From positions 17,422-81,421 of the forward strand of contig JBFMCL010000016.1 in NCBI GenBank assembly GCA_040754395.1: a DNA stretch of 64,000 bases, given 5' to 3'. This DNA is from Nitrospirota bacterium. Its GTDB lineage: Bacteria; Nitrospirota; Thermodesulfovibrionia; Thermodesulfovibrionales; SM23-35. Position numbers and translations under genes: made by a program. The notes under the pieces were generated by a model that saw nothing but the letters and a program-made list of their open reading frames with translations, ran no database searches and was not told the origin of the DNA. Below, one piece after another: positions 21,585 to 63,690 of this stretch. Position 1 is the first letter of the stretch, and every line of letters starts with the position of its first letter.

Positions 21585-21645
21585 ACCCCTACGCCCTCGC
21601 CTGCCCCTCTCATGATCGGAGAGGAACAGAAAAAGGAGTAGGGGT
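21585..21645 (-). promoter_or_regulatory. Terminator-like hairpin in the antiporter leader (attenuator candidate)
   Basis: On the minus strand ACCCCTAC pairs with GTAGGGGT, which is followed directly by TTTTTT; inside, CCTCTC pairs with GAGAGG. The element lies about 50 bases before the antiporter ATG and within the gap to the divergent L,D-transpeptidase gene, so a transcript of the antiporter would have to pass through it. That is the arrangement of an attenuator or riboswitch expression platform. No known riboswitch consensus was recognised. Confidence 0.5.
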
Positions 21646-21797
21646 CATCAGTCCTTTGCAGGGACGGTTAAAGGCGAACCCCATCGCCTGTCTGAGTACA
21701 CTATACAATGATCAAAAGACGCCTGTCAATGCACTGCAACCTCACTTGTTGCCGCAGCGCTTGCTTTTCGACGCCTGCGTTGTTTACTATCATCTGT

Positions 21798-62998: not shown

Positions 62999-63372
62999 CA
63001 GAAAACAGAATCTGACCCGGGATTGATTTCCATGAGTTACAACCTGAACTTTTTTCATTCATCATTTTCAAAACAACAATTTATCTGAATTTTATATAAA
63101 CCTATAATTCAGGATTCAATTATTTATATTATCTATTTTATTTATAGCTTATTATTATGCAAATATAACAGGAGAATTATTCACATAAGAATCAATAGCA
63201 CAGGCAATCCATGATTCTATTGCAGGTAAAGTCATTTCAATGATCAATCGTATAGACGTTTATGGACAACATTGTTTTTTCCGGTAGATGTGCACGGAAT
63301 ATCTGTCTCAGGAATACCCTGAAGGTACGACTACAGAAAAAAACCATGTGTAGAATACCCGTTTCTGCATGG

Positions 63373-63399
63373 CTGCATACAGCGCCGCACTGTATGCAG
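63373..63399. other. Perfect 10-bp hairpin upstream of the tRNA gene
   Basis: CTGCATACAG and CTGTATGCAG around a CGCCGCA loop. No T run follows on either strand. It is 39 bases before the tRNA 5' end; it may be an operator, or part of a longer tRNA precursor. Confidence 0.45.
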
Positions 63400-63438
63400 T
63401 GAACTCTTCGTAAAACTCCGTCAAGATATGTATATCAT

Positions 63439-63542
63439 GAGGGGTAAAGGGGCTGGTGCCCCGACTGGTCTGCAAAACCAGATTTATAGTGAAAGCAGGA
63501 TGGCTATACTATAGTGGGTTCGATTCCCACTACCCCTCTCCA
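63439..63542 (+). tRNA. tRNA with GCA (Cys) anticodon and selenocysteine-tRNA-like architecture
   Basis: 104 nt with encoded CCA. Acceptor stem GAGGGGTA (63439-63446) pairs perfectly with TACCCCTC (63531-63538), 8 bp; discriminator T at 63539, CCA 63540-63542. D arm GGGGC-TGGT-GCCCC (63449-63462) has a four-base loop. Anticodon stem CTGGT/ACCAG with loop CTGCAAA; anticodon GCA at 63472-63474. Variable region 63482-63513 is 32 nt with stem TATAGT/ACTATA and an inner AGC/GCT pair. T arm GTGGG-TTCGATT-CCCAC, 5 bp. The 8+5 acceptor/T helix, tight D loop, non-T at position 8 (A) and long arm match bacterial tRNA(Sec); the GCA anticodon and U73 match cysteine identity. Confidence 0.85.
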
Positions 63543-63665
63543 GTAGTATACTTCATCGTTCTTGTTGTTTTCCATCTCTTACTGGGAAAGAACTGCGCCC
63601 CCTCATTTAGTCCGGCATAGCGCTTATTTTAAGAAGAAGAAGCATTGTTGCATACAATAAAAAAA

Positions 63666-63690
63666 GGCCCGGATAACTCCGGGCCTTTTT
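63666..63690. terminator. Bidirectional terminator between tRNA and 5S rRNA
   Basis: Perfect 8-bp stem GGCCCGGA / TCCGGGCC with a four-base loop, followed by T5 on the plus strand and T7 on the minus strand. It can end both the rRNA operon (minus) and the tRNA transcript (plus). Confidence 0.85.

Follow-up and report, generated by a model that had tools for sequence, protein, structure and literature searches.

What does the tRNA-shaped gene at positions 63439–63542, on the forward strand of the window (the 64-kb stretch of DNA analysed here), encode, and what would its host use it for? The preliminary description of this locus had listed an 8-bp acceptor stem, a 5-bp T stem, a 4-nt D loop, A8, a 32-nt variable region, a GCA anticodon, U73 and an encoded CCA, and each of these features was found in the sequence. 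The 5′ strand of the acceptor stem (63439–63446, 8 nt) pairs with 63531–63538, the D arm (63449–63462) has five pairs and a TGGT loop, and the anticodon arm (63465–63481) presents GCA at 63472–63474. The variable region (63482–63513) forms its own stem, the T arm (63514–63530) has five pairs and no bulge, and the 3′ acceptor strand continues into U73 (63539) and CCA (63540–63542), completing the element at 63531–63542; A9 accompanies A8. Positions 63439–63538 match the Rfam tRNA-Sec model over its full length at 58.5 bits (gathering threshold 47). The predicted minimum-free-energy structure of 63439–63542 is the described cloverleaf (−45.8 kcal/mol, z = −4.27), with 0/200 shuffles folding as well, in agreement with the earlier impression of a gene with perfect stems and no sign of decay. 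A canonical 7/5 fold, which had been raised as a possibility, was rejected, because the acceptor has an A-U pair as its eighth and all five pairs remain in the T stem. Sequence, Rfam match, fold and covariation (below) together identify an 8/5 selC*-like tRNACys(GCA). ARAGORN called no tRNA in the 64-kb window, so annotation that relies on this program is blind to the gene. Downstream, a terminator-like hairpin (63661–63690; T run on either strand, consensus match only) separates the tRNA from convergent 5S and 23S rRNA genes located by Rfam search. Elsewhere in the window, a fluoride riboswitch (21632–21697, reverse strand, 56 bits) precedes a frame that by eye looks like a cation/proton antiporter.

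The window corresponds to G000:C16:17422-81421 of a 2.98-Mb assembly in 75 contigs (G000), which allowed us to place the gene among the other tRNAs of its host. A normal tRNACys(GCA) with the same anticodon, 76 nt long and recognised by ARAGORN, lies at G000:C18, and a tRNASec(UCA) with G73 was also found (L001). Since both are present, the gene at 63439–63542 is an additional cysteine-type tRNA, and the idea that it might be the genome's sole tRNACys was rejected. The extra tRNA resembles bacterial tRNASec (selC) in its 8/5 branch, 4-nt D loop and long variable arm, and its T arm is identical to that of the host tRNASec at 17/17 bases. It differs from tRNASec in carrying GCA rather than UCA and U73 rather than G73, its acceptor and D arm sequences are unlike those of the host tRNASec, and a tRNASec is present besides it. 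The host tRNASec itself (L001 1501-1598) has a C-A mismatch at its eighth acceptor pair; among nine tRNASec genes of the order, this position is C-A in five and T-A in four.

Further selenium machinery in the host is incomplete as assembled. We scored all SelB candidates of G000 and found no match for either SelA or SelB in the assembly. The host tRNASec is 1.3 kb away from the end of its contig, next to frames that by eye look like a transposase. Two formate-dehydrogenase-like genes (L213 and L215; G000:C6:16970-19033 and G000:C4:114967), only one of which passes the formate dehydrogenase cut-off, each contain one in-frame TGA, at what we take to be the selenocysteine position of known enzymes. 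These two genes indicate that selenocysteine is probably still used in G000 and, together with the position of tRNASec near a contig end, they lead us to suspect an assembly gap hiding selA and selB, which is plausible. Loss of the selenocysteine trait in G000, at first taken to explain the missing SelA and SelB, was therefore provisionally dropped.

The preliminary description had left it to be checked whether tRNAs of the present kind are among the reported tRNASec variants. The kind is published: selC* tRNACys (Mukai 2017, as reviewed in PMC7609411) is reported from Nitrospirae among others, and the review gives as its most striking feature a modified 8/4 branch with a 4-bp T stem and a bulged A51a. 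By that account, the extra tRNA shares with selC* tRNACys a tRNASec-like body, an 8-bp acceptor, a long variable arm and U73 combined with GCA (or UCA). It likewise coexists, in our host genome, with a normal tRNACys as its isoacceptor, and a SelB duplicate adjoins selC* tRNACys in some lineages, although none does so in this window. The window's T stem, in contrast, has five pairs and lacks the A51a bulge, as do 60 of 62 distinct GCA relatives, and the extra tRNA is thus not a plain member of the selC* tRNACys class. Its relatives also differ in their neighbours (YedF, LysR and a double-cubane reductase), in having no CysRS-like gene in any of 63 GCA loci, and in having SelB duplicates that cluster apart from those of Desulfobacterales. 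Nor does the extra tRNA match the allo-tRNAs, which are serine-type molecules with an 8/4 or 9/3 arrangement, a 12-bp branch and SerRS identity, because its branch has 13 bp and its discriminator is U73. In the literature that we searched, which included few subscription papers, none paired YedF with tRNACys or Thermodesulfovibrio with tRNASec, and a term search of a 2026 selenoproteome review found no mention of tRNACys.

How widely the extra tRNA occurs was assessed by similarity and by pattern. BLAST searches that made no demand on the anticodon or position 73 gave matches in 33 of 61 genomes, and GCA together with U73-CCA was present in 26/26 other fetched loci whose match reached the 3′ end (24 confirmed by script, and L031 and L034, with a variable arm beyond the script's limit, read by eye). 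Scanning GTDB 220 with a sequence pattern, one genome for each species, returned 105 loci; since U73-CCA and portions of the anticodon and T arms are required by the pattern scans, conservation at those positions is built in. Sixty-three of these loci have GCA with 13 nt between the T loop and U73 (8/5), and 25 have UCA and 12 nt (8/4, carrying a single bulged base: A in 24 loci, T in the remaining one). The remaining 17 were left out (10 GCA loci with 11–12 nt and no 8-pair acceptor, and 7 UCA loci with 14 nt). Among the 105, GCA loci never have eight acceptor pairs together with 12 nt on the 3′ side, whereas the 25 UCA loci counted above all do. By record title, 51/63 GCA loci belong to Nitrospirota, eight to other groups (L098, L111, L128 and L165 in Chloroflexota and kin; L068, L108 and L126 in Actinomycetes or Thermoleophilia; L145 in Obscuribacterales) and four to further Bacteria. 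A record titled Thermodesulfovibrio sp. N1, a relative that may be available in culture, also holds such a tRNA (L139). The UCA loci are titled Desulfobacterales, Desulfobulbaceae, Deltaproteobacteria or Proteobacteria, with the exception of L143, assigned to Thermodesulfovibrionales. L143, a 4089-base contig bearing an opal 8/4 tRNA and SelB, shares a Thermodesulfovibrionales bin with L153, a GCA 8/5 locus, and is likely misbinned.

One of the 63 GCA loci is a duplicate sequence, leaving 62 distinct sequences, all of which have at least seven acceptor pairs (all eight in 54) and five anticodon-stem pairs; five T-stem pairs occur in 60. We added the window's own sequence to these 62 and evaluated covariation over 18 pairs of the acceptor, anticodon and T stems, three of which (30-40, 31-39 and 53-61) are fixed by the search pattern. 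Among the 63 sequences, 1123/1134 cells are paired, whereas none of 500 shuffles exceeded 1016; in 13 of the 18 pairs both positions have changed. Because relatives carry intact, covarying copies, a mutated copy confined to this genome was rejected, as was the related concern that relatives might hold the locus only in mutated form. Within the phylum, a strict-pattern search found the tRNA in 31 of 245 sampled genomes, comprising 31/92 in the window's class and 0/153 outside it; this distribution of the GCA 8/5 form in the sampled phylum is apparently new. Some genomes hold two copies with different variable arms (G003:C62 and C142; G048:C19 and C91; G086:C1 and C20), and in G003 a SelB duplicate lies beside each of the two. 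Carriage by phages was considered and rejected, since 29 of 33 viral hits to the pattern have a seven-pair acceptor and a 12-nt 3′ side and the remaining four lack a clean 8/5 cloverleaf. Those 29, among the viral contigs L217–L249, are 7/5 tRNAs with GCA, a long variable arm and U73.

Around the tRNA in relatives, the recurrent neighbours, with representatives identified by curated models, are YedF (TIGR03527), a selenium-metabolism LysR (NF040786), a double-cubane-cluster reductase (NF040772) accompanied by an acyl-CoA dehydratase activase, SelD and NifS, alongside a protein closest to split-Soret cytochrome c that falls below its model cut-off (145.5 of 400 bits). This set is much like one already linked to selenium use, in which, in the accessible part of that work, YedF, LysR_Se and DUF3343 are associated with 2-hydroxyglutaryl-CoA dehydratase, its activase and a transglutaminase-like protein (PMC5322559). 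A selenium gene lies within 1.5 kb of 32/63 GCA loci, as compared to 0/15 normal tRNACys loci (Fisher p = 2e-4), a figure that is descriptive because the gene families were chosen after viewing the target loci, with only 15 control loci and profiles mostly built from the target loci. Six other tRNAs of the host genome gave 0/6 at the same distance, and adding the activase, reductase and cytochrome raises the counts to 41/63 GCA loci against 2/15 normal tRNACys loci. The enrichment of selenium genes beside this tRNA is apparently new; 31 of the 63 GCA loci have no selenium gene within 1.5 kb. We also looked for SECIS-like folding after the Cys codons of the linked YedF, reductase and split-Soret genes and found none, with positive controls that were themselves weak (z = −1.47 and −0.77). 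YedF is split in L111, but an in-frame UGA as the cause was rejected, as the two halves lie in different frames and thus no UGA is involved.

In the window itself, none of the nine gene profiles used for this comparison matched. Immediately upstream of the tRNA, at 63183–63401 on the forward strand, the C-terminal part of an acyl-CoA dehydratase activase gene survives as a broken remnant (best E = 1.6e-7; when the last 4 kb were shuffled, 2/20 replicates also produced a hit at E ≤0.01). It is interrupted by stops and frame changes and ends 37 nt before the tRNA. Some relatives (L146, L151, L157 and L266) have the order reductase, activase, tRNA. Taken with the broken remnant, this order suggests that the tRNA outlived its operon here.

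A SelB gene begins about 26–45 nt downstream of the tRNA in 7/63 GCA loci and adjoins it at 27–119 nt in 19/25 UCA loci; SelB is absent within 1.5 kb of the other 56 GCA loci, and the window is among those without an adjoining one. Multiple SelB genes above the cut-off occur in 5/61 relatives (G003, G007, G011, G013 and G018), and each of the six extra copies in these genomes adjoins a tRNA of the extra kind. In a SelB tree from which pieces of ≤450 residues were excluded, and in which one sequence was entered twice (selB_L187 and sBc_L144), the GCA-locus copies, six of them long enough to be included, group as one clade (100/99) within the ordinary SelB of the order. The Desulfobacterales copies form a separate clade, and for these and the outgroup a long-branch warning applies. 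The seventh copy, from the Chloroflexota locus L128, is a short frame that remained outside the tree. Few residues separate the copies from ordinary SelB, and five of the six align with it to the end, the frame of L070 ending early. Ordinary selB lies about 5–10 kb from selC in G004, G008, G010, G019 and G036 rather than adjoining it, so the adjacency of the extra tRNA and SelB probably does not go back to an inherited selC-selB pair. As judged from the tree, SelB appears to have been recruited separately to the same kind of tRNA in two lineages, and this separate origin is apparently new.

Across the class, the relationship between the tRNA and the selenocysteine trait is mixed. SelB over the cut-off is absent from 7/92 class genomes (G000, G012, G069, G086, G095, G112 and G120), as determined from all candidates in G000 and G012 and from five scored candidates per genome in the other five. 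G069 and G095 lack SelA, SelB and tRNASec over the cut-off as well as the extra tRNA by the strict pattern, while G012 retains broken SelA and SelB, a recognisable tRNASec and a 38-nt remnant of the extra tRNA. G012 (C105, C97 and C94) thereby presents a genome caught during decay of the selenocysteine trait. The pattern in these three genomes fits a dependence of the extra tRNA on the selenium system. G000 and G086, without SelA and SelB, yet keep tRNASec and the extra tRNA, the latter in G086 as two copies that each lie beside YedF and LysR. G120 has SelA, tRNASec and the extra tRNA with no SelB among its five scored candidates, and G112 has SelA and tRNASec with neither the extra tRNA nor, again among five scored, SelB. 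If the absences in G000, G086 and G120 are real, SelB is not needed. Accounting for the whole class, we saw no association between the tRNA and SelB, the tRNA occurring in 28/85 genomes with SelB and 3/7 without it when five candidates per genome are scored.

Which enzyme would charge the extra tRNA is suggested by its identity elements. In the accessible part of PMC9976931, the main determinants for bacterial CysRS are U73 and GCA, and G73 is listed for bacterial SerRS, which makes charging with cysteine likely. The host has one complete CysRS, at G000:C34. Outside the window, at G000:C20:7478-8686 (L195:7472-8689, reverse strand), we noted a CysRS-like protein of 405 residues that ends before the anticodon-binding domain and is ~30% identical to the host CysRS. 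It has what we take to be HIGH- and KMSKS-like motifs and, at the presumed zinc positions of CysRS, altered residues. The paralogue reaches neither the CysRS nor the MshC cut-off of NCBIfam (174 of 485 bits against MshC) and has homologues in 12 further genomes of the 61. We set it aside as the charging enzyme on account of its low identity and altered presumptive zinc residues, and because it also occurs in G008, G009, G031 and G042, where BLAST gave no such tRNA. Beside the GCA loci, the search for a CysRS-like gene gave none in 63; the one beside the opal tRNA of L095 is 48% identical to normal CysRS and differs from the G000:C20 paralogue.

These observations lead us to a tentative reading, to which we give nearly even credence: the extra tRNA is loaded with cysteine by CysRS and delivered by a SelB-type route at cysteine codons of selenium-linked messages. 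The molecule would have descended from selC, consistent with its tRNASec-like body and shared T arm. The earlier suggestion of a former selC converted to charge cysteine thus fits, with the charging step resting on U73 and GCA. The ordinary CysRS would load it, and SelB or its duplicate, rather than EF-Tu alone, would hand the Cys-tRNA to the ribosome; it is the T arm held in common with the host tRNASec, together with the SelB copies beside the tRNA in relatives, that favours such delivery. The codons served would be cysteine codons in certain messages connected with selenium metabolism. In G000, delivery of this kind presupposes that selA and selB lie inside an assembly gap. A SelB-like factor of Methanosarcina mazei that is reported to bind Cys-tRNACys offers a precedent, but it is an archaeal protein (PMC4329189, accessible part). 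The preliminary description had instead considered poor EF-Tu binding, regulation or non-ribosomal use; no observation here bore these out, and the neighbourhoods of the relatives point to selenium and the SelB system.

The strongest competitor, a serious possibility if on balance a doubtful one, is that the gene encodes an auxiliary elongator tRNACys used by EF-Tu and kept in selenium islands for Cys-rich redox or Fe-S proteins, or for replacement of selenocysteine under selenium shortage. Such a role would suit the 56/63 loci without SelB within 1.5 kb and the three sampled genomes that carry the tRNA with no SelB in the assembly among the candidates scored; in addition, the double-cubane reductase, split-Soret cytochrome and YedF have several conserved cysteines. 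An EF-Tu substrate, however, would presumably have no need to keep a tRNASec body and the shared T arm, the genome already has a normal tRNACys, and the adjoining SelB duplicates of separate origin argue for delivery by SelB.

Considerably less probable is that the tRNA has become a functionless relic in this genome, its partners gone. The broken activase next to it, the failure of all nine profiles to match in the window and the missing SelA and SelB of the assembly are what one might expect of a relic. Against this, all stems, U73 and CCA are intact beside a visibly broken gene, the two formate-dehydrogenase-like genes keep an in-frame UGA as if selenocysteine were probably still in use, and the location of tRNASec 1.3 kb from a contig end makes a gap plausible.

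We consider it very unlikely that the gene is a tRNASec variant with a sense anticodon, loaded with selenocysteine by SerRS and SelA and inserting it at cysteine codons. Variants reading UGC/UGU are reported, in the accessible part of PMC8124441, and relatives keep the tRNA in selenium islands, but U73 replaces G73 and forms with GCA the pair of CysRS determinants (PMC9976931, accessible part), and a tRNASec(UCA, G73) coexists in the genome with formate-dehydrogenase-like genes bearing in-frame UGA. Least probable is a Cys-tRNA with a regulatory or non-ribosomal role, such as a SelB decoy or a cysteine donor to another enzyme. The tRNA does sit beside genes of selenium operons, and the normal tRNACys can handle translation, but 63/63 sequences keep a fully paired five-pair anticodon stem, in which two of the three pairs left free by the pattern have changed at both positions, and this suggests decoding.

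Should cysteine loading and SelB-type delivery apply to the extra tRNA, a more specific picture may be drawn for Thermodesulfovibrionia, one that we regard as rather doubtful. There, a dedicated SelB copy and a tRNASec body recoded to GCA would place cysteine at chosen UGC/UGU codons, a context-dependent use of sense codons that would be switched together with the selenium regulon and would have arisen separately from the opal version of Desulfobacterales. The known role of SelB is at a recoded stop codon; if the proposed delivery is true, the reach of special elongation factors extends to sense codons as well. The pairs of tRNA and SelB would then constitute a defined set for probing SelB's choice of amino acid and whether two parallel channels can read one sense codon.
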